From: Crossaster papposus
Lineage: Eukaryota; Echinodermata; Asteroidea; Velatida; Solasteridae
NCBI GenBank assembly: GCA_037893245.1
Contig: JBAIAA010000253.1
Coordinates: forward strand, 248,001 to 312,000
DNA: 64,000 nucleotides
Direction: 5' to 3'
In this document: positions 6,627 through 42,245 of the stretch, piece by piece
Layout: every line of letters starts with the position of its first letter
Numbering within the stretch: position 1 is the first letter of the stretch
Notes under the pieces: model-generated
Seen by the model: the letters and a program-made list of their open reading frames with translations, nothing else
What the model was told of the DNA's origin: nothing
The model's database searches: none
Program-made: the position numbers and the translations under genes

Positions 6627-7499
6627 GTGAGTGTTGACTCTTTGTGGAAGAACAATGTCGCTATTTTTGACAATATTTTATCCTTGTTATGTGGTAAAGC
6701 AGGACTCTATTTCATACACAGTATTTCTGTGAAGTTTTCTTATTTGTCTGTTTGCTTTTCTGGCGTCTTTTGTCCTGCAAATTTTACTGTACTGTTTTCA
6801 GGACACGCGCCCTGGCCTTGCGACCGTATCGGGAGTCGGAACCGAGGCAGTACGATAAAAACCTGTGCGCAAAAAAAAAGAGAGCGTTTTTTATCACTTT
6901 GGGTTTTAGCCATAGACTTCAAAATAAAACCTAGACATGACATGCGTTTTTAAAACTGTTCTGAAAATCGATCCGCGTATTGAAATAAAGTTCATGCATA
7001 TGACGTCACATGCACGTCTAATGCACGTCGCACTTTGACCTCGATAATGGCCGCTTGGCCCGGTTGCTAGTGCAATTAGCGCGTACGCGGAGCGCAGGTG
7101 GCGTCAATGCAACCCCTAATATTAGGAATGTGCGAGTACATGACGTGAAACGCTAATCGCGGGCGTGGCGTGCGTGGGGAGGGTGCACGTTGTCGTTGGC
7201 AATAGGCGTGTTTTGTGGCACGGCCTATTTTCAGAACAATGACTACAATGGTAAAGTATACACATGTCTCTAGCTATAGATCAATATATGTCTAGTATGG
7301 TTCCATCTAGTTGCGATAATCGTAACCCTCCATCGACGGTCGAAGACCGGAGGGTTACGAGACAACTCGTGTAAAAAAACGGGAAGTTGCAATTTCGACC
7401 ATTTTTGCCAGACTAGTCACCAGATTTGCCGGATTTTAACCACTTTTAAAGATCATGACACACATTTCAAGAACACAGATTTGATCTGCAATGTGTAAT

Positions 7500-9925
7500 T
7501 GAAGATTCTATCATAAGAGATTGCACGATTCATGAAAATGTAATGTCCGATCATTATGTTATTTGCTTGCTATTAGATGAAGCAAAGCTGCCCCCGATGC
7601 GCATTACCTCTACATTGCGAAATTACCGCCAAATAGATAATTCTAAACTTGTACTTTCACTAAACCATTTAAGAGACAGTCGACCTGCTGAGACCGACGT
7701 CGATACATATTTTAGCTGGTACAATACTGAAATCACAAACATACTTGATCGTTGTGCTCCATCTACAACAAAAAATCGCACTGTAAAACATAGAATGCCC
7801 TGGTATAATGAACGTATTCATGAAGCACGTCAAAACAGACGACAAGCAGAACGTAAATGGAGGAAGTCACGTTCCTCATATCACCGCCAACTTTACATGG
7901 AGTCAAGGAAAGTTGTTACTGATCTTTCCATTGAATCCAAGAAAGCATTTTTCCTTGACAAACTATCAACTGCTGACACCAAACAAGTGCATTGCATCAT
8001 TAATACCCTACTTAATAATAACACACATCACCTTTCAAATTGTGAATCACATGACCTCCTTAGTAACCAATTTTCTACATTTTTCAAAAGGAAAATTATC
8101 ATTATTCGTCGTGAACTTGACCTTCAGACGGGTTCAAGCGATTTTGCTGATCCAATAGATATTTCTTTTCAATCACTATCGACCTTGCGGCTAACTACAC
8201 AAACTGAAATATCAAAAATTATCTGCAATTCACCATCAAAATCATGTCGCCTGGATCCCTTGCCCACATGGATGCTTAAGGAAAACCTTACTCAAATTGT
8301 GCCAATTATTACTGATATTATCAACTCTTCTTTGTCGTCCGGAATCTTTCCTACTGAAGCCCACCGTGCCATCATTAAGCCATTACTAAAAAAGGCGTCA
8401 CTTGATAGAAATATTCTTAAAAATTATAGACCCGTTTCGAATATCAGTTTCGTTGGTAAGATAATAGAAAAAATTGCTTGTGCACGACTATCTGAACATA
8501 TGAATCAACATAATCTAATGGACCCCTACCAGTCAGCTTATAAACCCAAACATAGTACTGAATCTGCCCTAATAAAAGTAAAAAATGATATCATGTTTTC
8601 CCTTAATTCAAATCAAGTTACCCTCCTAGTATTATTAGATCTTTCAGCTGCATTTGATACAATTGATCATAGTATATTACTTTCGCGTTTGTCATCCAGA
8701 ATTGGCATAAGAGGGGTTGCACTTGACTGGTTCCATTCATATCTTAAGGGTTGGACCAGTCAGGTTGACATTGCTGGTGAATTGTCAGCTCCATCTATTG
8801 CTGATTATGGCTTACCACAGGGCTCTGTCTTTGGTCCACTAGGCTACACTGTTTACACCCTTCCTGTTGGTGATATAGCACGGCACCACCAAATTTCTTA
8901 TCATATATATGCTGATGATACACAATTATATATATCATTCAACCCTAATGTACCTGGTGAGATGAATCGTGCAGTCTCTAAACTTGAAAAATGCATCTCA
9001 GACATTAAAACCTGGATGACAGTTAATAAGCTTAAATTAAACGATGATAAAACAGAATTCTTTGTCGCTGCTTCCTCCCATAATCTTAAACTTATCCCCG
9101 ATATTTCCATTGTTATTGGGAACTCTTCTATTCACCCATCTGAATCTGTTAGGAACCTAGGTGTATTCTTTGACTCGGCTATGTCCATGTCTTCCCATAT
9201 ATCATATATATCACGAACTGTCAATTACTATCTTCGCAATATATCACGTGCCCGCAAGTTCATGGATGAATCTACATGTCACCACGCTGTTCGTTCATTG
9301 GTACTTTCACGGCTTGATTATTGTAATGGTTTGTTATCTTCTGTACCCAATGTACACATACAACGACTGCAGCGGTTACAAAACTGGGCCGCACGTTTAG
9401 TTTTTGCTGTCAACCGCAAGCATGATCCCATACCCTTGATGCATTCGCTACACTGGTTACCAATACAACAAAGAATAATGTTCAAGCATTTATTATTTGT
9501 CTACAAATCCTTTCATAACCTTGCTCCAGTCTATTTATCAGACTGCTTGTTAAAATATGTTCCAAGAAGAAATAATCTGAGATCTGGAGATGATATCCTA
9601 CGACTTGAATATCCTAGAACAAGAGTACAAGCCGGTGATAGAACTTTCACTGTATGTGCCTCCCGTGCATGGAACAATCTCCCGATCTCAGTTAGATCTT
9701 CTACCTCTGTAAATAACTTCAAAAAATCTTTGAAAACGCATCTTTTTGTATAATTTTCCTACCTTTGTATTATTCTGCAATCATTGTTTCAATTGTTAGT
9801 TTTAATGTAACTATTTTATTGTAAGTATATCTAAGTAACATTTTATAATTGTACGCGCTTTGAGCCTTTTGGGAAAAGCGCATTATAAATATTAATGTAA
9901 TGTAATGTAATGTAATGTAATGTAA
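7500..9925 (+). mobile_element. 5'-truncated non-LTR retrotransposon (CR1/L2-like LINE)
   Basis: The element starts inside the endonuclease domain, encodes an intact reverse transcriptase, and ends in six TGTAA units (9896-9925) after a short 3' UTR with the cgcgcttt...aagcgcattataaat type of tail common in CR1/L2-like LINEs. It sits inside the left arm of a MULE-like element at the sequence TGTAATG. The 3' repeat matches that target, as expected if reverse transcription was primed at the site. Confidence 0.88.
7543..9753 (+). CDS. LINE ORF2 fragment: end of endonuclease, reverse transcriptase, C-terminal domain
   Basis: A 736-residue open frame, which remains open back to the truncation point at about 7500, so the listed Met is not a natural start. 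Residues 2-7 (SDHYVI) match the last conserved SDH block of APE-type endonucleases; the preceding endonuclease part is missing. Reverse transcriptase motifs follow in order: NYRPVS near residue 295, LLDLSAAFDTIDH near 365, GLPQGSVFGPL near 428 and the catalytic YADD at 456-459. The C-terminal region includes HSLHWLPI and the RLDYCNGLL-type block common to the CR1/L2/Jockey group. No internal stop, so the insertion is fairly recent, but with most of the endonuclease gone it cannot be autonomous. It lies in the presumed first intron of the SRSF7-like gene, in the sense orientation. Confidence 0.9.
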   Translation: MSDHYVICLLLDEAKLPPMRITSTLRNYRQIDNSKLVLSLNHLRDSRPAETDVDTYFSWYNTEITNILDRCAPSTTKNRTVKHRMPWYNERIHEARQNRRQAERKWRKSRSSYHRQLYMESRKVVTDLSIESKKAFFLDKLSTADTKQVHCIINTLLNNNTHHLSNCESHDLLSNQFSTFFKRKIIIIRRELDLQTGSSDFADPIDISFQSLSTLRLTTQTEISKIICNSPSKSCRLDPLPTWMLKENLTQIVPIITDIINSSLSSGIFPTEAHRAIIKPLLKKASLDRNILKNYRPVSNISFVGKIIEKIACARLSEHMNQHNLMDPYQSAYKPKHSTESALIKVKNDIMFSLNSNQVTLLVLLDLSAAFDTIDHSILLSRLSSRIGIRGVALDWFHSYLKGWTSQVDIAGELSAPSIADYGLPQGSVFGPLGYTVYTLPVGDIARHHQISYHIYADDTQLYISFNPNVPGEMNRAVSKLEKCISDIKTWMTVNKLKLNDDKTEFFVAASSHNLKLIPDISIVIGNSSIHPSESVRNLGVFFDSAMSMSSHISYISRTVNYYLRNISRARKFMDESTCHHAVRSLVLSRLDYCNGLLSSVPNVHIQRLQRLQNWAARLVFAVNRKHDPIPLMHSLHWLPIQQRIMFKHLLFVYKSFHNLAPVYLSDCLLKYVPRRNNLRSGDDILRLEYPRTRVQAGDRTFTVCASRAWNNLPISVRSSTSVNNFKKSLKTHLFV

Positions 9926-11758: not shown

Positions 11759-14700
11759 ATGTCGCGCTACTCGGCCAGCAACTGCAAGGTGTACGTGGGC
11801 AACCTCAGCGACTACGGGTCGGTGAAGGATCTGGAGGCAGCCTTCGGCGTCTTCGGCCCTCTGAAGCACGTCTGGGTGGCCAAGCAGCCCCCAGGCTTTG
11901 CTTTCGTGGAGTTTGAGGATTCGCGGGATGCGTCAGATTCCGTCAAGGAGCTGAACGACACGTGAGTAAAATCCTACTTCTAGAAATAAAACTTTACAGA
12001 TATTTGTTGGAGGTATTCGAAACCCATCAAAATCATGCAGTCACCGCTCGGCTTAAAATCCTTAATCTATCGGATTCCACCAGTATTCAATTATAGAGGT
12101 ATCCTGAACGTACATCACGTACCATTGAGCTGTAAAGCAGCTAAACACGGAAGAGCTGCTAAGTGCCCTATTACAAGGGTCTGCACACATGACCCTTGGT
12201 ATGCAAACGTTTCCTATCCTTGACACATAACTTGCACCTTGACAAACTCTATGGAGAATGTGCATAGAGCATGAGCAGTGTGAAAGTACAAGGTAATAAA
12301 TAACCTCAATTCCCCAAAATCCTCATTTGGATAAATACATAAGTAAACCCAATCAGAGGGAATATGCGTGTTTGCATATATTCGACTTTTTTTAACTGGC
12401 GTAAGTTGTTTGCGTCTGTTCTACTTGCTAAGAATGAAGAGTTAGCGCTCTAGTAATTTAATAAAGCTCTATGGTATCACCTCGATTGTTTTTTCTGTAC
12501 AGTACAATTTGTGGACGCCGTGTGGAAGTGGAACTAGCCACTGGGGAGAAACGACGCCGAAGCAGCGGCGACCGCCGCGGGGGCGGTGGCGGTGGCGGTG
12601 GCGGCGGTTACAGCGGTGGTGGTGGGGGTGGTTATGGTGGCGGCGGCGGTGGTGGTGGCGGTTACGGCGGTGGTGGTGGCCGCTACCAACAGCGCCGCTC
12701 CTACAACGACGAAAAATGCTACGAGTGCGGCAAGCCTGGCCACTTTGCCCGCGAGTGTCCCTATAACTCGCGGAGGAAACAGTCCCGGTCCAGGTAATGT
12801 CCGTCCGTGTGTGTGCCATTTTCAAATGAAGATATTAAACAAATCATACCTGGAAACTCGTTAGGTTCACTGTTGACACTTTCTCTTTTGGCTGTCGTTT
12901 GGCACAACAGACAAAATGCAGACATATTTTTGTTTAAATAGGCAGTTTAGAAACCCAAGTTCTTTGACCAAAACTATTGAATTGACCAAGACTTTTGAGG
13001 GTTGACCGAGACTGTTGGGGGTTGACCGAGACTGTTGGGGGTTGACCGAGACTGTTGGGGGTTGACCGAGACTGTTGGGGGTTGACCGAGACTGTTGGGG
13101 GTTGACCGAGACTGTTGGGGGTTGACCGAGACTGTTGGGGGTTGACCGAGACTGTTGGGGGTTGACCGAGACTGTTGGGGGTTGACCGAGACTGTTGGGG
13201 GTTGACCGAGACTGTTGGGGGTTGACCGAGACTGTTGGGGGTTGACCGAGACTGTTGGGGGTTGACCGAGACTGTTGGGGGTTGACCGAGACTGTTGGGG
13301 GTTGACCGAGACTGTTGGGGGTTGACCGAGACTGTTGGGGGTTGACCGAGACTGTTGGGGGTTGACCGAGACTGTTGGGGGTTGACCGAGACTGTTGGGG
13401 GTTGACCGAGACTGTTGGGGGTTGACCGAGACTGTTGGGGGTTGACCGAGACTGTTGGGGGTTGACCGAGACTGTTGGGGGTTGACCGAGACTGTTGGGG
13501 GTTGACCGAGACTGTTGGGGGTTGACCGAGACTGTTGGGGGTTGACCGAGACTATTGGGGGTGGACCGAGACAATTGGGGGTTGACCGAGACAATTGGGG
13601 GTTGACCGAGACTATTGGGGGTTGACCGAGACTATTGGGGGTTGACCGAGACTATTGGGGGTTGACCGAGACTATTGGGGGTTGACCGAGACTATTGGGG
13701 GTTGACCGAGACTATTGGGGGTTGACCGAGACTATTGGGGGTTGACCGAGACTATTGGGGGTTGACCGAGACTATTGGGGGTTGACCGAGACTATTGGGG
13801 GTTGACCGAGACTATTGGGGGTTGACCGAGACTATTGGGGGTTGACCGAGACTATTGGGGGTTGACCGAGACTATTGGGGGTTGACCGAGACTATTGGGG
13901 GTTGACCGAGACTATTGGGGGTTGACCAAGACTATTGGGGGTTGACCAAGACTATTGGGGGTTGACCAAGACTATTGGGGGTTGACCAAGACTATTGGGG
14001 GTTGACCAAGACTATTGGGGGTTGACCAAGACTATTGGGGGTTGACCAAGACTATCGGTAGCCCAGTGGGGTAGTCTTGGTACACTGGCAGATAGAGGGC
14101 AATGTTGGTAGGGAATTCATTCGAGTTGGTTACGTAGAAGAGCAAGGGTTTAAGAACTACATTGTAATAAGTAGGATCTGAATCTGCTACATCCTGGGGC
14201 ACTGCTAACCGAGTATCTTAACCTTGCGTTGGGGGTCTTCCAAATATAGGTAGTCCATTTCTTGCAAACAGTTTGAGTAATCCGGCAAGATTAGTGTAGC
14301 TAAATTTGAGAATGAATTGCTAAAAATGTCAATTTTTTTAAAGAGAAATTCAATATTTAAACAAGTTTTATTTATACTTGTTGATTGCAGGACCTCTAAA
14401 CTCCTAGGCCATACTCGTGTTGCTTGGGCGTTTTGGTCTCTGCGAGCTAACTCATTGCGGCCGAATTACGTGTGTCCACTAGTCCCGAATCATATCCGCA
14501 AGTCGTGAACGACAAGTCCGTCCTTCCGACCTAGTCACAACTGCTAGTCGTTTCGATTGGCCAGCGAAGGCCAACTGGTGTCTGCAAGCGATTTAACCCT
14601 CCCCCTTCTCCACAGGCCTTCAAATACTTCAGCTACACTTCATTCTACCTGCGAGCGTTTTGCCCGCCACTGCAAAATACTCCAAACCTCAAGCCTGCGT

Positions 14701-20497: not shown

Positions 20498-21097
20498 CCA
20501 GTTCGCGCCGGGATTATTTTAACATCACCGAGCCGAGGAGCGGGATTATTTGTAACGAAACTCGATCCGAGGCGGGTTCAGGCCGATGGTACCAGAAAGC
20601 ACACCCACGCATTTCCAGCCTTGCTCGCTGCTGACAGACATTTCCGGCCTTGCTCGTGATGTGTTTATTATGCGTCATCCGTTTTAAATCTGGGGAAAAC
20701 TTTGCGTGTATATAGTATAGGCCTACACCATTGGTCATTGCTTGAATTATCATGAATGAGTAGATTTGGGGGGTTGTATTTATAGTAAATATCGTTTAAC
20801 TGAGCTGTCCGAAGTTTTAGAATCATGGATGCCGAGAAAAGCACGAAAAACAGCGGGTTTTTTTCAACCGGCATCGAGTAGTAATATTCTTATGTTATCT
20901 TTTTTTTTTTCGCGCTCGCCGTCCGGCGATCGCGAATTTTTCATTATAAAATTCTATTTTTTTGAAGAATTACAGGATATCTAGCGCAATCATTTTGCTG
21001 GATGCCCAGAATCAACATTTACTTTCAGATGAGTAAGAAATTTCTTAATAATTCGGTAGTAAATATTTTCGATATCTGCAAATGGTGTATCCTACCT
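20498..21097. mobile_element. Chimera of two TTAA-type MITEs
   Basis: It starts at TTAA (20494-20497) as the CCAGTTCGCGC family. Near 20720 it changes into the AGGTAGGATACACC family, whose right end TCCTACCT|TTAA lies at 21097/21098-21101. The right end of the first and left end of the second are both missing, which suggests a deletion across two neighbouring insertions or a composite element. Confidence 0.6.
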
Positions 21098-21179
21098 TTA
21101 AGCACGCATTCAGGCAGAAAACCCCTTCATGCCTTGAATGAAACAGTCCAGATAGGCAGAGGGCTAGTTGTGCTGGTCA

Positions 21180-21850
21180 TGACCAGCAGCCCAGAGCATT
21201 TTGATCAAACGAACGAGGTACCAACATCTGAACATAGGAGCATTCATGGTGTAACCTAACATATGCAGATATGGATGTCTGCCGGGGACCCCTGCTGCGT
21301 GTGGCCCCTGGGGACCTCAGAGAGACCCCCCAAAATGCACTCGATCAAACATTGGAGGTACCATCTCAAACCAGTTTAAAATGAACAGGTACATCACACA
21401 GAGTACAGAATGGCCCCTGCCAGACAAATTGTCTGCTGCAATTAAAGGGCCCGCCAGACGCCCCTAAAGCGCCCCAAAATTGCCCCAAAATTTGACCTAG
21501 ATCAAACATTGGAGGTACCACATGAAACCATTTTCAATGGAAGAGGTACATCCCACATAGCACAGAATGGCCCGTGCAAGACAAATTATCTGCTGCATAT
21601 GGCCTGCCAGACGCGCCCAAATGTGCCCGATATGCCCCATTATCTCAGAATTGACATAGAGTAAATAACAAAAGTACCACTTGAAACTAATTTTTAACAA
21701 TCGGGTACATCCTACAGAGTACAGAAATCGCCACACCAGACAAATTTTCTGCTGCTTGAGGCCCACCAGACACCCCCCCCCCCCCCCTCAAAGCTTTGAG
21801 GGGGGGGGGGTGTCTTGTGGGCCTTAAGCCTTATTAAGGGCCCCCAAATT
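21180..21850 (+). repeat. Left terminal inverted repeat with subterminal repeats
   Basis: Matches the complement of about 29129-29789. Copies of the gatcaaac...gaggtacca motif begin near 21207, 21342 and 21501, and a diverged one follows near 21862. Each is followed by segments like cacagagtacagaatggcc and gacaaatt.tctgctgc. Confidence 0.85.
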
Positions 21851-22210
21851 TGGCCGGGATTAAACATTGGAGGTACATTGTACCACAGTTCAAATGAAGA
21901 TGTACATCCCACAGAGCCCAGAATGGCCACTGCAAGACAAATTAATTATCTGCTGCAATTTCTCTTGGATGCGGTTACATGGTGATAAGCAGTATTCACA
22001 CATAATTACCGAACTAATCCGGAGGTACATTGTATGCTACATGTAAGTCCCCTCCATGGGTGACAATCAAAATAGTGGCCATCGCATAACATTACAATGC
22101 GAGTGAAAAAGCTACACATTCTGCCCTATAACTACTTTGGTTAGTACACAAAATATTTTAACTGCAGGGCTATGAGTGACATCCTTATAGGCCTTAAGTT
22201 GCATGGATGT

Positions 22211-25200
22211 TCAGATCTCTGTTTCACTTTCGGAGTCATCACTCCAAGGTAGTTCGGAACTTGAATTATCAACATCGTCGAACTCGGTAGCTACATCTGG
22301 TTGGTTGCTCTGAAGATGCTCCATACTGTCATCCTCTAGTTCCTTTTCCTGGAAAAGATCATCTGGGAGAGCAGGTCCCAAGAACCAGTCTGGGGCATAG
22401 TATCCATTCTTGTCCTTCCACCCATAGTTCAGAGGATCTAAACCATGTCCTGGATGTGGCGAGTCAGCATTTCCCCATAGGATGCTAATGAAGTGGGCCC
22501 GTCGTAATTTGTTGTGCAGAGTCTTTGCACACGGTGGAAGTAGAGCGCAGTCAACCTTCTTTACATTGGTCATCAGGTTTTCCTGAAAAGAAGAAGATAT
22601 TTGTAGATGGGGGTTTAATGTCTATCATTACTTAGCTATAGATATGCACTACAGCATAATTTATATAAAAGATTAATTAGTTTACCATCCCAATGTGCTG
22701 CAATTAACAAATCCCACCCGGAAACACACACACTGAAAAATTTGCTAGATTGTTCTTGATGAACACTTTTGGATAATTGCCTGTGGTATGCTGCAACCAG
22801 GTTTCGTGGTGGCCATTTATTTCAGGTGCACTAACTACATGTACCATATATTGGCCCCTATTGAGTGGCACCTGCAAGAATTGTCATAAGCCATTACTCT
22901 AAACAAGTGTGGTTGATTCAACGCCCAAACAATAGAATTAGCCCCTACCCAAAGGATACCAATTAATACCTGATTCAATTTTCCAGTCATCTGATGCAGT
23001 TTTGTGTATCTCGCCTCATTGACGTCCTTGACATCTCCCTTTATGCCATACAAGGAACATATGAACTCTTCTGCCTTGCTTTGGTCTGGTTCATCTTCAG
23101 AAGACAATCTGCTGAAGAACTGGATGATTGTCCCTGTAGTGTCTTTCTGAAGAACTTCCAGTGGCTTCACTTTACCCTTTTTGTAGAATGCTGTGGTGAA
23201 GTCACCGCCTGTTAATGCATGGAGACCTGGCATTGCTGCAGCTAGTCCCCTCTGCGTTGACTCCATGGCGGTGGCAATGCTACTGACATCAATATGTCGA
23301 CGGTTATTTCCTGAGCCGCATTCCATAATAATGCGACTGTATGACGTTTCCCTGTGACTTTCCATGTGCCTTCCTAGCATTCCAAGAAGTATAACAATGA
23401 CGTCAGTATCGGAGGCTCTGACCACTACATTTCCAGTAGCGTTGGCTGCATGAAATGCAAGGAGAGTGTCGGCTTCCTCGTGGCTACCCTGGAGATGGGC
23501 TGGATGTTCAACCCTCATCTTGAAATCAAGCTCATTGAAGGCAAGACGGGCACAGTTGCCACCATGAGAGACGACTAGTATCTTCTTGGCTAGGATTGGT
23601 CCGTACTGGTCTTCTTGCCATTCTTTGAGAAAAAACATCGCCAATTGATCTTTGAAACTCCCGTTTTGCAACAATTTCTGACAGCTCTGTCTTGGTGCTT
23701 GCTCTGGACCGGTAATGACGAATGGACGATCATCTGCTCCACGAAGTTTCCTCTCACTCTCTTTCAGGGACATGGGTTGATACGTATCAAACAACACGTG
23801 GATCTCATTCCCTTGGCTGGCACAGACATATGCTAGAAGTTTCCTGGCGAGGTGTCCATATGTTGTGATGTTTCCAATGGCAGATAAGAAGGAGTGGATC
23901 AAGAGTCCACCATCGATCAAAGTCGCATCGATCGGTGGTAGTGGTGTTTCTGTGAAACCGTCCTGTAGCTCTTCTAGTCTCCTCAGCAGCTTGCTCTTGT
24001 CTGTCTTGAGGCCTGACCCATCCGAGTGTGTGATAGACAGTGGGTAATCTGTAATTGGGAAGGTCATGACATGTCTGAGGTTGAAGGTACTCTTCTCTGA
24101 AATGATGACAAGTATGCGAATGAAAACATCCCTCAGACTCTCAGCTGCAGATTTTCCCTTGGCAATTGGATGCTTCTTCTTTAAGTTTTCCTGTGCGAAA
24201 TTGCACACTTTTCTTCTTTTGATTGGCTTCAAGAATCTTTTATCATCTGCTGCGCATTCCTCTTGGAACTTCACACGAAGTTCGTGGCCAGCGTCAAGGC
24301 TTCCGGTCAGATACTCTTGTGTTTTCTGGGATGCTGCTTTGCCTGTAGATATGTTCAGGAGGCAAGCAGATGTTGTTGCCATTGAAGAGAAGGGGTCACA
24401 CGATTCTGTGATTCCTTTGATCAAGACGTCCCTTTGGCGACTATCCTTCTCAATTCTGCTGGCCCGTAGCTGTGTTGCAGACTGCTCCTCTGCCTCTAGT
24501 CCTGCCATGCTCCGCAGTTCCGTCACGGACATGCCCCGCTGAGTTGATGTTATGCACCATCGTCTTATTGCATTGCGTGAATTGTGGAACCCTACAATTC
24601 CTCTCATCGGTGATGCCGCATCTCTATTCACGGTCTGCTCTAGGGTCAAGTCAATGGCTGATCTGGCGAAGTTTTTGCTAGTGCGTCTAATAGAGAAGGC
24701 CCCTGACTTTAGAATCATTCGACTATGTGGCACCGCCTTCATGAGCTGGTTGATGAAGAGCACACCCCAACGGGCGTAGTTGGGTCGATTTAACCCAAAG
24801 AAGATGTCAACTACAGCTTGCAGTATGGTGATGTAGTCATCAACGTCATTCGTGCGAAGTGCACGCATGAGGTCTCTGTGAACTCGATTAATCATGAAGA
24901 CATACATGCTCCAGTATTGGGCAGTTGGGCCAAGTTTTCCATTCATCACGTCCTTGAAGAAGCGCTCATATTGGTCCATATGATCTTGGAAAAGTGGATG
25001 TGTATTGAGGAACTGTTCCTGGGCCTTGACATCCTCAGGAACATCCGCAAGCAGCTCCTTGATGGCATCTTGCCTTTCCTGGGTAAGAGTTGACTTGAAG
25101 CTGTCATACATCTTTCTCTCCATGGCAAGGGCAAGGATGTCATGGATCCGGACACACCGATTGTAGTATTTACCACGGATGAAACCCATCAGTGACCCTT

Positions 25201-28001
25201 CAGCCAGTATCCCACATTCCGTCAGCAGGTGTTGTGCACCCCTCATTGATGAATGTGCCAATGGCACCATAGAATGCCAACTCCAAGTGGAAGTTTCCAA
25301 GCATGATGAGGAGCTTGTCAAATAGAGGTGCATATAGTGCTTGGATAGAGTACGCTTTGAGAGCAACAGCTAGGTCATATGTGACAACGCCATACTCTTG
25401 ATGAGTCTCAACAGCCACATTCATTGCCCTTTTCATGGTTTCACGAACAACATCATTTCTGGTTGGCGGCGCTGATATTGGATCCATATACCAGATTCGT
25501 TGTTGCGGCAGATGATCTGTGGTGAATTTGGAGTAGAATCCAGGAAATAGGGGCAATGGTTTTGCAACCTCTGACTGGAGCAACCAGTAAAAATCAATGA
25601 CACGTAGAGTTGGTGCTTTCTCTGCTTGCTGATTTTCATTTACTGCTGATAGATCAAAGCTGGCTTTCTTAAGCTGCTTGTAGTACGGTACAATTTCACG
25701 TTCTTTCCCATCAAACTGTCGTCTGTTCCTCCCACCGCGGACACCAGTAATAGGCTCATCAAGTTCGTTTGTGCTTGTGGCATCTATCATATTCTGGTAG
25801 CAGATCCCAACTGTAGCATGCAGGGTGTCCTTTCCGTCAATAGTATCCATATTGACGTCATAGTTATCCCATGCGAGTCCTGTGCCTAGGTCGGGATTCA
25901 GTTCCACACCATCAGGAGTATCTCGATCATTTTCTTCCACTGAGTATGCAAATTCAGTCTCTAACGCCTTGACCTCATCATAACTCAAGGAGTTTCCCAG
26001 ACGATTCAGCATACGTAAGATCAATTTTGAACCAAAGTCCCAACCCCCAATCCAAGTACGGTGTGTTTCCAAGGCCGCACCGCACCTCTTGATGTGTTGT
26101 AAACAGCATCTGATGACATGACGGTCACTTTTCTGTCCACTGCATCTCTGTTATCATGGCCAGAAGGTTCACGAAGGCCACAGAGGAGTGTTTTGTAAAA
26201 CAACAACAACTCTTCTGGTAGTTCAGGTGAACATGCCTTCAGTGCTGCTACAGATGTTGGAGTCGGCGTTTCCCATTTAGGCATTGCCTGTATCACGGCT
26301 CGAAGATAAAGTGCTGTCGTTCGTATCACATGGAGGTGTTTCTCGGCATCATTATGTAGGCTTGCTCTAGCATCACCTTCGGACATACCAGATCTATGCA
26401 CAAAGTTACCCTTCCGATGGTCATAAGTAGATATTGAGATTTTCTCTCCAAATCTGTCCTTGATCTTTTTCATTAAAGCCTGCACCGTATAACTTTCGAT
26501 ATTTTCTATTGTGCCTCCTACACTCAGAAATTCAGTCCTGTATAATTCAAGAATCGACGTGGAAAGCATTGCCCTACCATTTCCAACGACCTCCCTCTTG
26601 ATTACATCTGATATTGTTTCAAAGGTGGTTGCATGTAGACGTCTATTTGACATGTCTGCAGTCTTTGGTACAGCCTCAACTTCTTTGAAGAATTCACGAC
26701 GGCAAGATTTGTGGTATTGGGCCTCCTTTGCTATAAGGTCAACTCCACTGGTAACTAAAGTCTTTACCCGTTCATTGCTGCTCCTTGGGGCAGCTGCAAT
26801 TATGGCAGCACATCCATCTTTGGTAAGACAATCTGACAATGGCTCCACCTTCCTGTTGATGGTTTTCCGCTGTACAGGACAAAAGATACAGGAGCCCCTC
26901 AATAAACCCTTTGCATCTGTTGGTGGCAATGAACTTCTGCGCCGAGTCTCTGTTTTTTTTGAGGGATGGTCGCTTTGTGAATCTGTTGATGCCCTTTTCA
27001 CAGCGGTAAAATTTCTGTAGCATTGGGAATGGTACATTGCATTGCCCATTTCTTGCTTCAGATTGACTTCTGTAGTTATATCTCTGTGGCGATCCGACTT
27101 TAGTAAAAGTCTAAATTGTGCTGCCCTCTTGAACGTACCCCAAGTTTTGTCCACAAATATTTTCAGCGGGTCACCTTCCCTTGACTTGCAAATGATGCAC
27201 ACCTGATCAGCTGCTTCAGAAGTGTTTTTGGCCTGAAATAATACAAAACTATTATGTAACATGGGTAAGGGGGCACTCTCTAGTTCGAAGGTTCCTTAGT
27301 CTAAATTAATGATGGATACCCGATTTCATGATTATCATTGTAAGAAAGCCAACAGCATCAACTGCATGGGTATTAGTTGCTCCTCTGTGTAGCAAAGTAA
27401 CATATATACATGTTTTCTAAATGAGGATTTAATTGAAATAAATAAAGTCAATTCGAAAAATTATCACTGCATACCTGATTAGATACCTCCGGTTTATCTA
27501 TGTCGCCAGTGGGATTGTCAACATCCACTGCCGGCGGGTCTGTAGCCTGTAATCGAATAGCATTAGTATTGTGTCTTAGTAGTAGGGTTTAGGCATACAA
27601 AACAAATGTTGTTGATGAATTTTAATTAAGATGAAAGACGCCCACTCCTTTAACAATATGGTGGAAACGCGATTAGAGGCATCAGAGTGATTATTATAGT
27701 CACTAATTAGGATGGCGGCATACCTGATTAGCCTCAGGGTTACGAATGTTGTCAGTGGGGTTTTCGCCATCCATTGTGGGTGTGTCTGTAACCTGAAAAT
27801 GAATGTCAGCATTTCTTAGTATTAGGTCTACACCTTAAGTAAAAAGCCCAAAGCGTATTCAGCAGCGGTAGAACATTTTTACAAGTTGGGGGACTGTTAT
27901 TGGTGCCCAGTGGTAGTGGGATTATTTCGAAAATTGGCCCACTTTGACTGGATTTTGTTCCAAAACTGGGCCAAGCCCCCACTTTCGATAGTGGTTATTG
28001 C

Positions 28002-28035
<34 letters not shown>

Positions 28036-28298
28036 CAGTCCTGCCGCCGATAATTGTAAACCAAGTTCGTTTGGTGAAATTTAATTTTTAACAATGCCTT
28101 TATTATTATACCCTGGATACCCAAGTGCATGCATACTGTTACCTGATCTTGAGTATAGCAAGCTACAACTATCTAGCAGTAGTCTTTGTGGTTGAACTTT
28201 AATGAAGGGAATAAACTAAAGCCTATTGCACAATGATCGATGCATACCTGGTGAGATGCTTCAGGATCGGGAATGTCAGGGGGGATGTCAACATCCAT
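22211..28298 (-). CDS. Cys/His-rich protein with C-terminal PIN/FEN-nuclease-like motifs (element-encoded, two frameshifts)
   Basis: Minus-strand exons: A 28298-28248 (ATG), B 27792-27724, C 27546-27475, D 27232-22970, E 22582-22211 (TGA). All have GT/AG borders and are in phase 0. A-C encode short acidic repeats of the type NPT.NIRNPEANQ. D begins with a zinc-binding-type region (CIICKSREGDP ... YHSQCYRNFT, then CIFC and YHKSCRREF). The C-terminal third of D has an acidic motif series typical of the PIN/FEN nuclease fold: DATLIDGG (about 23930), SHEEADT (about 23480), SDTDVIV (about 23410) and HALTGGDF (about 23210). E ends in an acidic tail. Reading frame is lost twice in D, near 26030-26036 and near 25238-25250, where similarity continues in another frame, so this copy is probably inactive unless these are sequence errors. 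I recall similar multi-copy, unnamed proteins in cnidarian and deuterostome genomes, but I cannot name the family. Alternative: a captured host gene. Minus-strand exon 28736-28613 (donor GTAAGT) may be a non-coding leader. Confidence 0.65.
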
Positions 28299-29128
28299 TT
28301 CCGGTCAATCTCTTGTCTGAAATGAATGAAACCACTTAGTTTACCCACATGCAAGCCAACCCCATCGTTTTTGAGGGGAGGATTTCAATCTCATTGAAAT
28401 AACTCAATTTATCAAAAAGGATCTTAAAAGTATTTAAACACTCACTTTCTTTTTTAAATTTGCAAATGATGACCTATGCAGTTTCCCGTAGTTTTTACAA
28501 TATTCATGTCAACATTATGTTGAAATAATTGAAATTGAAATAATTATAACAACAACAACTACGTCCCTACAGTAACCTAGCAATATTGATATGAAATAAA
28601 ATGCAGACTTACCATGAAATAAGTAGTTTTCAAAATCTCTCTTTTCAACAATGGCTTTGTCGGTTGAAACTTGTGGCGAATATAGGATCAATCTGTCTTT
28701 TACTGCGGTGATCCAGTTGGGCCAAATATATTTCATTCATTTCATGCAGGCACATCAAACAGATTCTTCACCTTTCATGACTATGTGAAAAGATTTCCTT
28801 AACCCTAACCCTGCCAGACCATATGCATCAGGTGGAAAAATCTGATGCACTTTCATGCATTTAGTTATCAACACCAGTGCATTACCGGCCAGTGCTGAAA
28901 CAATGAGAGCTTTAATCCAATTGAACAATGCCACAGTTGTATTCTGCTGCATTCAGTGCTGAGTCATTTTAGTCTTGAGAATTGGATCTTGCTACACTGG
29001 GTGGACTGGTCATTAGTGTTGCATGTTGCTAGCTGCATTTGGCAGGTCATTTCAGTCGTTTCTACCCTGAAGTCCATTTAATATCGATAAAACAAATGGC
29101 AATAAGTAATAAGTAATAATAATAGGTA

Positions 29129-29789
29129 CCTCCAATGTTTGATCCCGGCCAAACTCTGGGGTCCTTTTTTTTTGGGGGGGGGGGGGGGTGTTGGGGGGGT
29201 GTCTGGTGGGCCTTAAGCAGCAGAAAATTTGTCTGGTGTGGCGATTTCTGTACTCTGTAGGATGTACCCGATTGTTAAAAATTAGTTTCAAGTGGTACTT
29301 TTGTTATTTACTCTAGGTCAATTCTGAGATAATGGGGCATATCGGGCACATTTGGGCGCGTCTGGCAGGCCATATGCAGCAGATAATTTGTCTTGCACGG
29401 GCCATTCTGTGCTATGTGGGATGTACCTCTTCCATTGAAAATGGTTTCATGTGGTACCTCCAATGTTTGATCTAGGTCAAATTTTGGGGCAATTTTGGGG
29501 CGCTTTAGGGGCGTCTGGCGGGCCCTTTGCAGCAGACAATTTGTCTGGCAGGGGCCATTCTGTACTCTGTGTGATGTACCTGTTCATTTTAAACTGGTTT
29601 GAGATGGTACCTCCAATGTTTGATCGAGTGCATTTTGGGGGGTCTCTCTGAGGTCCCCAGGGGCCACACGCAGCAGGGGGTCCCCGGCAGACATCCATAT
29701 CTGCATATGTTAGGTTACACCATGAATGCTCCTATGTTCAGATGTTGGTACCTCGTTCGTTTGATCAAAATGCTCTGGGCTGCTGGTCA
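29129..29789 (-). repeat. Right terminal inverted repeat with subterminal repeats
   Basis: Complement of the left arm. tggtacctccaatgtttgat motifs lie near 29130, 29452 and 29607, with a terminal variant near 29747. The poly-G run near 29173-29190 corresponds to the poly-C run near 21774-21790. Confidence 0.85.
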
Positions 29790-32031
29790 CTTGGTCACTC
29801 ATGGCAGTGTTCCCACTTAGTGAACAGTACAACCATAGAGAAACTTGAGGAACAGACCAATATTGCTTTCCCTCTGCCATCTTTTCCCAGGTATGTACTA
29901 CTAAATTCCTTGATTTAAATAACTATGTGTATATTAAATCTAGAAGTATAGGCGATCTCTAGCTGTCAAATAAGTTCTAGACATAGACACTGGTTGTTGT
30001 AACCACAAGATGAATTGTTTAGTTTTAAACAAGGAACGTTTTATACATTATGGATTGATATTTAAATGTAATAGTCAAAGGATTTCTTATATCCCATGAT
30101 AATTTAAATCTAGTATAAGGTCAGTGGTAAGCGAAGTACATGTACATGTAATTTAGTTACATTTTAACTTGGAATCGGAACTTTGATTGCATTAGATTCA
30201 GGCAATAGGAAATGTATGAGTATATTTTCTGCTTTTGTCTTACCGATATTTTATTGTAATGTAAGAGATAGTTTTGTTGACCTAGTTTACAAACCCACAA
30301 TATAATATACATGTACACTGTGCATGTGTGCTATGCGACTAGATAGAGCCATGGAGGAATAAGCTCCGCAATCCATTAGCAGGGCCTGGGGGTCTGGCCA
30401 GTGGTCCTTTTATGACCTAGCCTGGGTTAATGTCTTTATTACCAACTGTATAATGTAGACCTTGCATTTTACTTGTATTGTTTAGAGGCTAGTGCCAGGC
30501 ATGTTGCCATAACAACAGCAATACTGGGCCATGGGTATTGTATGTCCTGTTTCAGAAGATGGCCACCGGAATTTAATGTGTAGTTACTAGTGGATTAGAA
30601 GTGCATTGTGCCAAACTAATTGTGCCACATACAAATTTGGAGTATTTAGCTAAGTTTTGCTCCATCGATTGAAGTTACCGTATTCAACATAATTTTAGTT
30701 TCTCCGACACCTATATTTTCAGATCTGATCGATTGAAAAGATTGTTTTGATCCCTAAATTTAATTTAATACAGGTTTTGTCATTCTCTTAATACCATAGC
30801 ATCTGATGAAGCACTACAATTGTAAATCTTCATTTCTTTTCAAAGACATTTTGAATATAACTGAGAAAAAGCAAATTTCCCAAAATTGTAAAAGACCGAT
30901 GCATTACACTACAGAGTTGTGCCATATTATATCAAATGAAAGCTTATTTCCTGCTTTTTCTGAACTGTAAAATTGAAAAAAACACATTTTTAACACATCA
31001 GACTAATTTTTGCAGAGTGGGTCACATTTTTGTACAAACGGGGTACGAGTCTACACAAATCCCCAGGTATTCTTGATCTGATACTAGTATACAAAATGAA
31101 GCGGAACTGCATATACTATAATTGTTTACAAATCTATGCATTTCATTGCAAAGTCCAATTTCAAAGTACAAAATTTATTTCAGTTGAAATGTACATAATT
31201 CTGAACACGTTTAATTTGAATATAATCTTGCATATAATAATCAACCAGGGCGGGCTCAAAGGAATATTTACACATCCAGTAATATTAACTAATACCGACA
31301 ACACAATTATATACCGTATGATTTTTGACCCACGAAATATTGTAAATATACATAAATGGAGTACATACATATGTACATATCTTATCAGCTGTAGTACAAG
31401 TTTATATTATAAAAATATTTCAAAAAAGAAAAATTATCCTTACAATTAATTAGGCCCTCTGCTTCAGTGCCAATAACCCCAATAACCGACAACACAATTA
31501 TATACCGTATGATTTTTGACCCACGGAATATTGTAAAATATACATAAATGGAGTACATGTACATATTTTATCAGCTGTAGTACAAGTTTATATTATAAAA
31601 ATATTTTAATTTTTTTTTATCCTTACAATTAGGCCCTCTGCTTCAGTGCCAATAACCTCATTATGTATGTGTTAATGACGTCACCTCATGTTTACCGCCT
31701 GACATTGCAGTTTTTAGCGAGGTCGCCGCCCGACGATCGTTCTATACGGTAAAATACCGACATACGGTCGGGTTTTTTTAATGAAAAGACGGTGAAATGG
31801 GTTTAAACCCTGGCGGTCGTGGAAGACAACGTTTCGAAAGACTTGAAAAGATTATTACTGGTCAAATGTGTACATTTTCATAATGTATATGGAATTTTTT
31901 CTTATGCGCGGCGGTAAACTAACTTTATCGTAGGGCTGATTAATTGCAAAGAAGAGCACTTAGTTAAAAATCTCGGTTTTAATTACATTTCCCGATTGCA
32001 CCTTTTATTTTGTCAAATTTCTCAATCGCAT
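29790..32031. other. Intergenic region downstream of dioxygenase gene A
   Basis: AT-rich and without a recognisable exon. It contains a direct duplication of about 185 bp (31292-31482 and 31483-31667), both copies starting accgacaacacaattatata. I see no transposase, RNA gene or conserved coding segment. Confidence 0.5.
31292..31667. repeat. Tandem duplication, unit ~185-190 bp, two copies
   Basis: The two copies share long identical runs (for example tataccgtatgatttttgac and ggccctctgcttcagtgcca) and differ by small indels. Confidence 0.85.
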
Positions 32032-35000: not shown

Positions 35001-37803
35001 AATACATCATTTTAAAGCTTATTTTTTGGGTAGATTTCATTTCTCTAAATATCTCAAAACGTCAAGATGCCTACTTTACTACAGCCCTTTCGTCGTGGAC
35101 GGTCGCATTTTAAAACACTATTTTTTTTTATTACATTTTATATCAGTTTAGTTATACAGTATCAGTCAATGTATTTGAAATTATTGGTTAGTCGTAGGTT
35201 CAAGGGTACAACTATAGAATGCAGGGCCACTCAACCCCTCTCGACTTTATTTACCCTATCACATAAAATGGAGTGGCCCTGTATTGGGGCCGCGGGTATT
35301 GGGGTATACAGGGTTAGGGTTAGGGTTAGGGTCAGTTCATTATATCCTAGGGTAAATAAAGTCGGGAGGGGTTGAGTGGCCCTGCATTCTATAGTTACTC
35401 CGGTTCAAGTCCCAACCGGGTGATTTTCTCCTTAGAATCTCACAGAACAACACCAAGTGTAGTGTTTATAAAAAAATTCGCATAGGTGAAGAGCATAAAC
35501 TGAAATTACCAAATTAAAGATATAATTATACTTACGCCCGGTGTGTAGTTATAAAACGGTAGGTCTATGTGAAGCAACAAAGCCTTTGGCGTGTACGCAA
35601 GATTGCTGGCTTCGTGTTTGCTGAACACTTGAAAGACTTCCCTGAAAAAAGTTGACCCCAAAACAAAACAAATCTGTAAGAAGAGTCATGACAAGTTTAA
35701 TTGTCACGCCAGGTACCAACACATTTTGAGAGGGTGCGGTACAGGGCTGATTTTTACTAAGCCACTCTCGTTTGACAAACTTTTGAAAAAGGTCTAAAAT
35801 CTGATCTAGTACACATATGACCCGGGGCCAATTTCATAGAGCTGCTAAGCACAAAAACTTGCTTAGCACAAAAAAGTCTTGCTCATTAAAAACAGGTTAC
35901 CAGCCAAAATTATACGTGTTTTTCATGCTAAGCAAAAAAACAGTTGATTATCAATCAAAAACACTAAAGATCATGTGAAAATTTGGTCTGTAACCTTGCT
36001 TTTGCCAAGGACAACATTTCATGCTAAGCAAATTTTTGTGCTTAGCAGCTCTATGAAATTGGCCCCTGGCTGTATGAATACAAACTAGCATTTGCATTTA
36101 CTACAAATTGTTAAGCTTTATTTGTATGAATAAATGTTTTTTGGTAAAGTATTTGTGACCTGTCATCACAAAATGAGCGTAAAGTCGCACTGAGTGATTT
36201 CCAATCCCAGTACGGCCTGTCAAAGTCAAAGTTTGAAGGGGTGGTCGATTTTGAGATTATATGGTTTTTTTAAAGACTAAATCCCCAACAATCAATTCCC
36301 AATTTTTCAGGACGATCAGATAAAAAAAAAAGTTTTTGAGACAATTTTGACTATGCCTTTCATTGCGCGTTTACACAATTTCTCGCAAGAAATGCCCGTT
36401 TTCTCATAATCTCTGTATTAAGAGTGCAGACTAAAAAAAAATAAAAAAAAATATTGAGTATCAAACCGCCAAGTGTTATATACTACTGGAAAGCTCTGTT
36501 TCCACAGAATTTAGAAATACCCATATCTCAATTTTTGATTTTGCCGACTTTACGCTCATTTTGTGATGACAGGTCACATTTGCTAAAGACTATGCAACAG
36601 TATTTACTTTTTACTTTCCAATATTTGCTGGAATATTAGTATTTGCTCCATTTGGTATACAAAATAAAAATAAGTAAATCCCTTAGATTTGCAGTATTTT
36701 CGTCATTTCTTTAAGGTTGGGTCGGGGCTACCTTGAGAAGCAAGTACTATGCTAGACCGAAAATAGACGAATAGACCGAAAATCTTCAAATAATTTTTTT
36801 CTTGATGCGTAATCCTCTCCAAAAAGATGGATAAATAATGTGATAATTCGAATAGCCAAGTACAGCATGTAAGCCTATTTTTTTACAAATACCCATAAAT
36901 TGTCGTTTTCGTATAGGCAACTTTCTTAGCTAGTTCCTGGTTGACTCCCTGCCGAGTCGGAGCCCCTTTCACCAAGGCCAGTCCCTTGGTGTTCAAGACA
37001 TCCAGCCAGTTGTACAGCTCCTTGTCTTCTTCCAAGAGTCTCTGGAATTCGAAAGTTGGGATCTGGCCGTTCAGCTCGGCTCCCCACGTGCGCAGCTCCG
37101 GACTGCCCACCTCATCTTTCTCAGACTCCGAGAATCGCTGCCGATTCAACCAGGCGGCCTGGAAGTCGCTGCGGTGCTGATCCGGCCAGACCACCCGCAA
37201 GACGCTTCCCTCGTTCGCGAGTTCCTCGGAGGAAGGCACCACGTCTGGATCCAGGTCGGCAATGCTGGAGGCTCTCTGCCCCGAGGAAGGGTGGTAGCAG
37301 TCGGGACACCGGCAGTTGTCCCTAAGCCAGACGTAGGGATAGACACCAACCGGGCCGCTGCTGAATTCTGCCCGGTAACACCCGGCCGAGTCGTCTCTGC
37401 TCATGCTCACAAACCTCGGACCTTCCTCTGCCTCTGGTGCAGCCTGTGTTGAATATGCCTTTGTCATCATGCCTATGCCAGCAGGCTTAAAACAGCCCGC
37501 TGTCGACTCATCCACTTTGATCCTGCTGCACCTCCCAAGAATCGAAGACAAACTTGCCGCCGTTCTGCCGCGGTGTACATGTTCAATAAATTGTGTACCC
37601 CGAGTAGGCACAAGCTCTCTCTCAAACCATGGAGGTAGGAAACATTTCCTACCTCCATGCTCAAACACAGTTGCCCCGCCCTGCCTCATAATTAGGCCCG
37701 GATGGATATGGCCTGATGAGGCTCTGGCGAGTCGACCGTGTCCAATTGCCAAGGCACGAAGCTTTGCAACAAACGCCATGATAGTCATCAGTCCCTGCCG
37801 CAT
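32032..37803 (-). CDS. Gamma-butyrobetaine dioxygenase-like protein, gene A (five exons, complete)
   Basis: Exons on the minus strand: 37803-36893, 35641-35536, 33743-33541, 32752-32586, 32198-32032. All GT/AG borders join in frame to a TGA stop, about 517 residues. The family uses Fe(II), 2-oxoglutarate and O2 to hydroxylate gamma-butyrobetaine to L-carnitine; the related TMLHE acts earlier in the pathway. Seen here: the N-terminal zinc site NCRCPDC plus WPDQH, as in human BBOX1; the iron H-x-D as LLLHID in exon 2; the distal iron His in VLHGRSSF in the last exon, with HLEGAYMDWD after it. The N-terminus is about 110 residues longer than human BBOX1. Its first stretch (MRQGLMTIMAFVAKLRALAI...) has Arg/Lys and no acidic residues, like a mitochondrial presequence; Met codons at 37788 and 37779 are alternative starts. 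Introns carry at least three MITEs and a SINE. Substrate could differ from gamma-butyrobetaine. Confidence 0.88.
32896..33183. mobile_element. MITE, GTGACC family, internally deleted (288 bp)
   Basis: Termini GTGACCTGTCATCACAAAAT and complement, flanked by AATT (32892-32895 and 33184-33187). Compared with the 420-bp copies it lacks about 130 bp of the interior near the left side. It lies in intron 3 of gene A. Confidence 0.88.
33225..33375 (+). repeat. Cluster of AGGTCA hexamers in intron 3 of gene A
   Basis: Eight AGGTCA on the plus strand start at 33225, 33270, 33283, 33300, 33317, 33335, 33360 and 33370, most inside a degenerate repeat of 17-18 bp (tttgaggtcaaa.gtca). AGGTCA is the nuclear-receptor half-site; the spacing is not a standard DR1-DR5, so a regulatory role is only a possibility. 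Confidence 0.8.
33795..34040 (+). mobile_element. tRNA-derived SINE
   Basis: A Pol III A box (TGGCGTAGCGG, 33806-33816) and B box (GGTTCGAGCCC, 33848-33858) lie 31 bp apart at the 5' end, followed by a non-tRNA body (ggggttttccccaggatatt) and a 3' tail of TTTCA repeats. A second copy is at about 59925-60146 on the other strand. It lies in intron 2 of gene A. Confidence 0.82.
34842..35106. mobile_element. MITE, GTGACC family (variant 3), 265 bp
   Basis: Ends GTGACCATCCACGACGAAAG and CTTTCGTCGTGGACGGTCGC, flanked by ATTT (34838-34841 and 35107-35110). The inverted-repeat sequence differs from the other two variants after GTGACC but keeps the terminus and the target type. Intron 2 of gene A. 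Confidence 0.8.
35211..35395. mobile_element. 185-bp inverted-repeat element with interstitial TTAGGG repeats
   Basis: Arms of about 46 bp begin actatagaatgcagggccac and end with the complement. The loop holds gggttagggttagggttagg (near 35318-35338). Target duplication is not clear. Confidence 0.7.
35823..36067. mobile_element. MITE, CAATTTCAT palindromic family
   Basis: Starts ggggccaatttcatagagct and ends with agctctatgaaattggcccc, with gctaagcac / gtgcttagc motifs subterminally. Intron 1 of gene A. Confidence 0.82.
36155..36577. mobile_element. MITE, GTGACC family (variant 1)
   Basis: 423 bp with variant-1 termini, flanked by ATTT (36151-36154 and 36578-36581). Intron 1 of gene A. Confidence 0.88.
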
Positions 37804-38394
37804 ATAACTTGCACGAACCACATTTGCCTATGAATACCGATCGGAACCGTATCCCAAACTGTGTACATGTACATGTACGTCAAGCATGCATGGCAACTTT
37901 GATCGGCAGCCCAATCTCATGAGTAGGGTCCAACTGGTTGAGACCAGAACCATGCGGCTCAAAGTTCTAATCTATAGTCAAATTTGTGAGTGTTTGTATA
38001 TATTGTGTCGGGTCCAAAATCGGGACAGGTGTCGTGCCAAAAGGTGTCCGGTGCGAAATAGTGTCCGGTCCGCCATGTGATTGGTCGAGCGCCTATGACG
38101 TCACATTGTTTACGGAAGCTTGCCAAATACTGTCCGCGCTAAGTGTGCATCCTATTGCGTGCTTGCTGTTGAGCTGAGAAGACGTGTTACAGATAAGATC
38201 GCGTTTTATCCTGAATTTCCTTTTGCCATATATTTAAAAGCTTTCCTTTTTATCTGTGATTGCTAAGGATTTGTGTATTTGTCTAGGCCTAACTAACTTA
38301 TTAATAGTTCATTTTATAACGTTTTTTTGTCCAAGAACTTGTGTGTGTTTTTCGTGGGACTGTTCTGTTTCAAAACACGTGCACGTACGATTGT
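37804..38394 (-). promoter_or_regulatory. Upstream region of gene A with CRE-like and inverted CCAAT motifs
   Basis: TGACGTCA (38096-38103), a consensus CRE palindrome, lies about 15 bp from ATTGG (an inverted CCAAT box, near 38080), roughly 280-300 bp upstream of the gene A start. No TATA box was placed. Function is inferred from motifs alone. Confidence 0.3.
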
Positions 38395-39662
38395 AGGTCA
38401 ACTCGCCCCCTGACCGACTCGCCCCTTACCTACTCGCCCCTTACCAACTCGCCCCCTGACCGACTCGCCCCCCGACCAACTCGCCCCTTACTAACTCGCC
38501 CCCTGACCGACTCGCCCCCTGGCCGACTCGCCTCCTGACCGACTCGCCCCCTGACCGACTCGCCCCCTCGTTTTTGAACCCCCGTGCATGTTTGGAGAAC
38601 TTTTGGAAACTTAACACAAAATACGAATGTTGACTTTGCCATTTTTTTGGCATTCGCATCCTTCGCAAAACGTTCGCGTGCCCCGCAAAAACCCACCCTA
38701 AAGCATGCATAAAAACGGTTTATGGATGTGTCTTTTAAAAGTTCGTTCTTTTTATGTTCTGAATATTCTCAGGTCTAACACGACATACCAAACGTCTTAT
38801 AAAATGTGAAAATCACATTTGACACCATCGGACATACAAAATACCAAAAACAGTCCCCCCTTCTCCAAAAGTAGCAACTTAACAAATTAGCGACTTTATT
38901 GTATTCACTGTCAGCTCTTTGATCTGGGTTTTTCACCATCTTTCACCACGTTTGGCGGACTGATCAGAGGGAGCCGACAGTTTTGTAGATGAGCGTCGTA
39001 ACACCCAGTTCAATCCATCATTAAGAGCGTTGGTTTTCGAAGAATGGTGGAGTGATTGACATATTCCCTATAGCTTCCTTGAAAAGCCCTATTGGGTTGG
39101 AAAGCAGTAAACAAAATTGCATCAAATTATGCGATCAACTTGTCCCCCCGCGCTCCGAAAAAAACCTCATAAAAACAAGAACCAAACATGATTATTTATT
39201 CCCCCCCCCCCCCCCCCAATTTTCTTTAAATAAATAAATGTATAAATAAATTGTTAACTTTTTTGGCTTCGAGGATTTAGGCCTACTGCTTTGTCTTTAA
39301 TTTCCACCACCGAAACGAACATCAAAAGGTATTTTCTAAAACTTAGATAAAAATAATCGAGATTAGGGCCTATGCAAGAGAATAATCAAGGAAAAAGTTT
39401 ACCCACATCGTCTTTTCAGTTGTTAAGTTCTACGAGGGCAAATGATACAAATTATAGAATTAAAAATACATGTAAATCAAACGAGGGGGCGAGTCGGTCA
39501 GGGGGCGAGTCGGTCAGGAGGCGAGTCGGCCAGGGGGCGAGTCGGTCAGGGGGCGAGTTAGTAAGAGGCGAGTCGGTCAGGGGGCGAGTCGGTCAGGGGG
39601 CAAGTTGGTAAGGGGCGAGTAGGTAAGGGGCGAGTCGGTCAGGGGGCGAGTTGACCTGACAC
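38395..39662. mobile_element. Fold-back element whose arms are facing minisatellites
   Basis: The left arm (about 38395-38573) consists of units such as ctcgccccctgaccga in the order tcaactcgcccc...; the right arm (about 39477-39662) is the same series inverted, with matching variant order (ccttacctactcg, ccttactaactcg, ctggccgactcg, cctcctgac). The spacer of about 900 bp has no recognisable gene. Arms of about 180 bp in this layout suggest a fold-back transposon whose terminal repeats are themselves tandem arrays. No target duplication found. Confidence 0.75.
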
Positions 39663-41418: not shown

Positions 41419-41932
41419 ATATTATAATTGTATAAGCTGTGTGAGGCTTACGCCGTATAGAAAGAGCTTACTGTGAACAGGTTATATTGTATAAGGTTAT
41501 ATTGTATAAATTATAGTTAACGTGGTGCAGTTGACCACGTGAGGCTTACCGAGCCTTGTGAGGCTTACTGAGCTTCGTAAGGATTATTAGGTGGTGCAGT
41601 TGACCACTTTATTTCTGTATAAACTAACTGATTGTTAATTAACACTGATTCATTGACAAGAGAAGAATAATAAGAATCATAACTTTCCTTGGATATTCTT
41701 GTCGCTGTGAGGATTATTTGGATCACTGTGAGGTTTATTATAATTATTTATTTATTTTATTTAACTGCCCCTAGGTTAAGTCCGCCGTTCGTTAATTGTC
41801 CCCCCTTGCGTCTGGATAGCCGCTCATCCTTGCGTGAGGCTAATAAATATATTTGTTGGATAATAAGAGTTGGTTGGAGTCCTTGGATAATAAGACCAGT
41901 CCCCATCCAGGTCCTCCGCCGGTTCCGCCACA
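41419..41932 (+). repeat. 5' LTR remnant of the Ty3/Gypsy element
   Basis: Matches 50796-51366 of the 3' LTR up to the terminal CCACA, apart from a small indel near 41745. The first about 960 bp of the LTR as seen at the 3' end is missing. Confidence 0.8.
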
Positions 41933-42245
41933 AATGGTGTCAGAAGTGGGATGTTTTATGATTGTATAGTGTAATTTGAGAACGTGTAATAAAGAAAATA
42001 AAAATTGCATTTGATTGTTGTTGGTGGTGCACCTCTGTGAGGTACACAGCGAGGTTGAATTGGTAACGAGGTTGGCAGGTAATGCTAATCTGGGTCGTTA
42101 CTTGTTTAGAAATAAAGTTGTTTTGATTGTCGGCAGTGAACCTCGCTGAGGTACACTGCGAGGATTATTAGTGACGAGTTGGTCACTTGCCCAGTGTAGA
42201 GAGTTGGGTTGAGACCAAGTTTCCTAGGCAAGAGGAAACCTCGGT

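Follow-up and report, generated by a model that had tools for sequence, protein, structure and literature searches.

A protein-defective, probably AcademX-type transposon of Crossaster papposus whose gene combines a predicted DDE transposase core with a predicted FEN-type nuclease domain

We analysed a stretch of 64,000 nucleotides of Crossaster papposus DNA (here called the window; C253:248001-312000 of genome G000, in which 1,023,315,904 bases were searched). It carries a transposon copy bounded by long terminal inverted repeats, with one multi-exon gene between them (Table 1). The two arms are complementary over three ungapped blocks, 21180-21292/29677-29789 (100%), 21284-21441/29527-29684 (99%) and 21444-21787/29185-29528 (99%). 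Over about 590 bp their gapped alignment has two mismatches plus two short gaps, after which it degrades at C-tracts, a likeness far above chance level, and tandem subrepeats of about 155 bp are present within both arms. An earlier note on this DNA had described inverted repeats of about 650 bp at 21180 to 29789. The repeats are real, of about 0.6 kb and about 99% alike, and the true element is one base shorter at each side. Elsewhere in the window, neither the protein set nor the DNA of the element gave an additional match, and an Rfam search of the window returned no match.

The single multi-exon gene seen between the repeats in the earlier note agrees with the list of open reading frames (ORFs). 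It lies on the minus strand and consists of five exons with GT..AG borders. Exons A, B and C resemble one another as diverged versions of a single small exon, each terminating in CAG/GTATGC (the slash marks the exon end). Exon D is made of three open pieces matching consecutive parts of the homolog P0002 (residues 4-405, 407-671 and 672-1433); its frame is therefore broken near 26033 and 25240, and the window copy is unable to encode the full protein. The Cys/His clusters and the acidic motif series reported earlier are both present. The former comprise CIIC (27199), YHSQC (27034), CIFC (26890) and YHKSC (26716) and probably bind zinc. The Pfam scan of the window ORFs gave only noise, Foldseek with the N-terminal model gave no match at E < 0.3, and none of the scanned ORFs and homologs gave a THAP profile row.

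Among about 5.8 billion proteins, 130 matches were found, the best of the 120 listed sharing 72% identity across the C-terminal part. Sources named for the matches listed include Priapulus, Palaemon, Petrolisthes, Holothuria, Temnothorax and Patella, and no relative was found in the viral and bacterial/archaeal collections. Of the 120 homologs listed, one alignment took in 85 and another 39, and the tree was built from 84 of the 85 rows of the former.

In the predicted structure, the middle part of the protein looks like a DDE transposase. It displays the RNase H order of elements, with an RNase H-like core and a helical insertion; the inserted domain is located between the second D and the E, as in the P element superfamily. 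The conserved acids of this core stand in DN.D, TYDLA and LEQT, and the position of the glutamate (E489 of model P0012) is kept in 85/85 alignment rows. Structural matches were moderate and included P element, ISCth4, Hermes and RAG1, with the P element as the top-scoring transposase chain; many further rows were retroviral reverse transcriptase chains, which matched the RNase H-like part across about 100 residues. Homologs also match the unnamed family DUF6589 (PF20231) between approximately the second D and the triad E: three of ten scanned homologs (P0106, P0110 and P0086) pass the Pfam cut-off of 27 bits, three genomic ORFs match below it, and the window ORFs gave no row for this family. 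The earlier note had recognised no DDE transposase in the element, a statement overturned by this DDE-like core with its conserved acids and transposase-like fold.

The C-terminal third (model residues 702-1038) is predicted to adopt a FEN/EXO1/XRN fold with all seven active-site acids in place (LIDGG, LFDTY, HEEAD, SDTD, TGGD), as expected of the PIN/FEN-type nuclease first suggested from the motifs. The best structural matches in a viral library were likewise FEN/XRN-type proteins. This part shares with FEN1, EXO1, XPG and XRN the fold as well as the order and spacing of the seven acids, in a comparison based on FEN1 residue numbers. It differs from them in being fused to a transposase within a mobile element and in lacking a Pfam XPG match: no XPG row was obtained for the window ORFs (E up to 10), nor for the scanned homologs or three related open frames (E up to 1). 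All seven acids are kept in the window copy, in the three genomic ORFs audited and in 56/74 alignment rows covering the region. Comparison of the window copy with the related copy C600 gave 0.785 synonymous differences per site (saturated) and 0.230 non-synonymous differences upstream of the FEN part against 0.210 inside it; the FEN part is therefore under no less constraint than the remainder. The window copy and its sister C83 are separated by only 9 differences across 757 codons, of which the FEN part holds four non-synonymous and one synonymous, too few for judgement.

The genome-wide search for further copies suggested in the earlier note yielded many, including intact frames. At least 79 places matched the element's last 300 bases, and there were 36 protein matches, several with uninterrupted frames of more than 1,400 residues. 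Five copies are two-ended and readable, from close (99% DNA identity) to distant (31-35% protein identity), and three of them have open frames of 1,528-1,579 residues. Their termini start with TAG (TAGACCAGCAGC, TAGACCGGCAGC, TAGTCCAGGAGC and TAGTCTAAGAG), and the commonest end form, ...GGTC/TA, occurs at 20/25 ends. In this hand tally both window ends are counted, as are likely allelic duplicates; left out are the C215 ends, the weak second C245 match and the left ends of C83 (truncated) and C691. All five copies define a target duplication of 3 bp, as read by eye: TAG for C451, TAA for C83, TAT for C600, AAA for C443 and ATA for C88. The first three alone would leave doubt because these duplications also start with TA; the copies C443 and C88 support a length of 3 bp. 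Two other two-ended copies, C215 and C691, are too decayed for the duplication to be read. C83, the sister of the window copy, is 99% identical to it with an internal deletion and has lost the nine bases after TA at one end. The arms of C600 (578 bp, 99.8% alike) and C443 (about 1,000 bp, 99.2% alike) are nearly identical, an indication that related families have moved recently; those of C88 are 91% alike.

Two further observations concern these copies. Six listed copies of a subfamily of about 50% identity have a TAG as their single in-frame stop, and read-through of this stop was considered. It was rejected since all five of these copies that were examined (L060-L064) read TTTACAGGTAGGC, where the TAG appears within a splice donor AG/GTAGGC (placement by manual reading). 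Separately, two family-like ends face each other about 10 kb apart at G000:C539 491474 and 501308; the sequence outside each end (CCC.GAAATTATTTGAATCTA.GAC) is common to both and stands in place of TA.

The window copy itself lacks the family's outermost TA at its ends, and its junctions display no target duplication. Both flanks (20980-21108 and 29790-29989) belong to a dispersed repeat that occurs at many other places in the genome, and related empty sites therefore exist. We examined eight of the 39 other listed places of this repeat (L052-L059). They read ...TGCTGGTCACTTGGTCACTC with small variations, so that the target already contained TGCTGGTC, identical to eight bases of the transposon end. 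The right junction could be explained by joining at the stretch common to target and transposon end. At the left end, the 18-bp palindrome formed by TGCTGGTCA and TGACCAGCA suggested an off-centre hairpin opening. However, the nine bases TGCTGGTCA are present without the transposon in 7/8 empty sites (L058 differs at the next base; in L052 one base is changed), and the likeness to the transposon end lies in the target sequence, so this trace was rejected. The window contains five palindromes of at least 18 bp, so that such a size is not rare.

The AcademX nuclease is described as XPG-like; to our knowledge the AcademX reaction is so far without experimental test, the elements being named in databases. 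As printed, AcademX combines a DDE/D transposase, an encoded nuclease and a target duplication of 3 or 4 bp (PMC10045372, PMC9004415, PMC10294476); the present element shares all of these, its transposase and nuclease by prediction. Since these features match, we file the element as AcademX-type, an assignment made by features and against the printed description. The only difference among those tested is the missing duplication of the window copy itself. AcademX duplications are 3 or 4 bp and those of the sister lineage AcademH 9 or 10 bp, compared with 3 bp here; the difference is seemingly tied to the encoded nuclease or helicase, respectively (PMC10045372). AcademH belongs to the same superfamily and, by a title cited there, is known from animals and fungi (PMC10045372), and Academ is counted among the DDE superfamilies (PMC9004415, PMC10294476). 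A helicase profile gave no row in four window ORFs or in three open frames of related elements. The P element shares the DDE core with a domain inserted between the second D and the E; it generates an 8-bp duplication in contrast to 3 bp here, and the present element additionally has the FEN domain.

We consider the locus, with a probability of roughly 80%, to be a recently inserted, now protein-defective AcademX cut-and-paste transposon in which the DDE core joins the ends and the FEN part is an accessory nuclease. In the mechanism we propose, every catalytic step being hypothetical, the protein would bind DNA through the N-terminal zinc clusters and a winged helix. The DDE/RNase H-like core would cut the transposon 3' ends and join them three bases apart in the target, giving the 3-bp duplication, and the C-terminal FEN/XPG-class domain would act on the 5' strands as a structure-specific nuclease. 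FEN-class enzymes cut 5' strands beside junctions, hence two natural roles: the domain may cut the non-transferred strand at the ends, or may trim 5' flaps after joining. The first would resemble Tn7, where a DDE enzyme likewise works with a second nuclease of unrelated fold, TnsA cutting the non-transferred strand alongside TnsB; natural TnsA-TnsB fusions occur (PMC10761935). TnsA is restriction-endonuclease-like, and its role on the 5' strand is described in that source, whereas for the FEN domain it is only proposed here. We slightly favour a TnsA-like role over flap removal, as a tentative suggestion. A more speculative idea is that FEN nuclease fused to a P-element-like DDE core might be a dedicated 5'-strand cutter, a eukaryotic single-polypeptide counterpart of TnsA-TnsB with an unrelated nuclease fold. 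To judge from sequence, the locus and its relatives indicate two catalytic centres in one protein; the relatives offer open frames, defined termini, a 3-bp duplication and, for natural comparison, a clade whose FEN site has decayed, and the reason why a DDE transposon carries a flap endonuclease becomes a directly testable question.

That clade is what weighs against a need for FEN catalysis. At least one of the seven acids is lacking in 18/74 covering rows, and 15 of these 18 group together on a long branch, as a clade supported at 100 (P0085, P0088, P0089, P0093, P0095, P0096, P0097, P0100, P0101, P0102, P0104, P0105, P0108, P0113 and P0116). The counterpart of D179 is lost in 14/15 members, that of D233 in 12/15 and both in 11/15, while the DDE glutamate (E489) is kept in 15/15. 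The second D is kept in the three rows reading through and DN.D in the two covering rows; P0096 has unrelated letters at the second D, probably beyond its coding frame. The clade argues that FEN catalysis is not always necessary; its members could be transposons without this activity or domesticated genes, and may move by another route such as nick-and-copy. A FEN fold serving mainly as a structural or DNA-binding module, with dispensable catalysis, would account for this loss of D179 and D233 counterparts beside retained DDE residues, but seems unlikely given the 56 rows, the window copy and the three audited ORFs in which all seven acids persist.

A FEN domain acting only after joining, in 5' flap removal or in helping to repair the 3-bp target gaps, with both strands cut by the DDE core alone, is a possibility to which we give limited credence. 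FEN-family enzymes remove 5' flaps, and between families constraint is as strong on the FEN part as on the DDE part. A cellular flap endonuclease is also named among the factors in retroviral integration gap repair (PMC11054761). Yet host FEN1 would make a private copy redundant. The earlier note had supposed that mobility depends on the FEN/PIN-like enzyme or on a transposase supplied in trans. The only gene of the element does encode a FEN fold with all seven acids; the presence of the DDE-like core in the same protein and a regular 3-bp duplication in 5/5 readable two-ended copies, the expected outcome of DDE joining, make a FEN recombinase or a separate transposase highly improbable. As for the name of the element, its AcademX likeness is one of features, as judged from the printed description, and the best-scoring transposase chain is that of the P element, as would suit an unnamed superfamily that came to resemble AcademX by convergence. 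We regard this as improbable, since a DDE core, a nuclease and a 3-bp duplication are the very combination printed for AcademX (PMC10045372).

Table 1. Positions of the transposon, its gene and its flanks in the window
Feature	Position	Strand	Remarks
Left host flank	21171..21180	+	TGCTGGTCA plus one base; with the start of the terminal inverted repeat, 18-bp palindrome
Transposon copy, whole	21181..29788	gene on (-)	ends GACCAGCAGC...GCTGCTGGTC; limits set via other genomic copies
Left terminal inverted repeat	21181..21787	.	tandem subrepeats of about 155 bp
Exon E	22211..22582	-	C-terminal tail (ENLMTNVKK...SESETEI)
Exon D	22970..27232	-	large (4.3 kb), frame disrupted twice
FEN active-site series	23198..23920	-	LIDGG, LFDTY, HEEAD, SDTD, TGGD; seven/seven acids present
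Third DDE motif, DLTLEQT	24632..24652	-	E489 of model P0012
Second DDE motif, TYDLA	25368..25382	-	D244 of model P0012
First DDE motif, WDNYD	25857..25871	-	D88/D91 of model P0012
N-terminal Cys/His clusters	26702..27199	-	CIIC/YHSQC and CIFC/YHKSC
Exon C	27475..27546	-	
Exon B	27724..27792	-	
Exon A	28248..28298	-	likely start codon (MDVDIPPDIPDPEASHQ)
Right terminal inverted repeat	29185..29788	.	
Right host flank	29789..29810	+	no duplication shared with left flank

Several other features of the window were noted, the coding ones by eye. A 764-residue open frame at 7459-9753 (+) resembles a reverse transcriptase of the long interspersed nuclear element type, and an open frame at 36883-37827 (-) an exon of a host gene of the gamma-butyrobetaine-dioxygenase type. 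An apparent Ty3/Gypsy-type long terminal repeat element occupies 41479-50886, with a zinc knuckle in its gag-like frame and a pair of overlapping pol-like frames; an identical 15-bp tandem unit lies close to both edges. The 20-bp minisatellite at 12982-14053 (53.6 copies, 99% matches) leaves reading frames open over long distances in more than a single register because 20 is not a multiple of three. Tandem arrays are further found at 56112-57445 (65-bp unit, 20.4 copies, 95% matches) and at 38401-38568 and 39484-39651, the latter two being a 16-bp array and its apparent reverse-complement copy about 1 kb apart.
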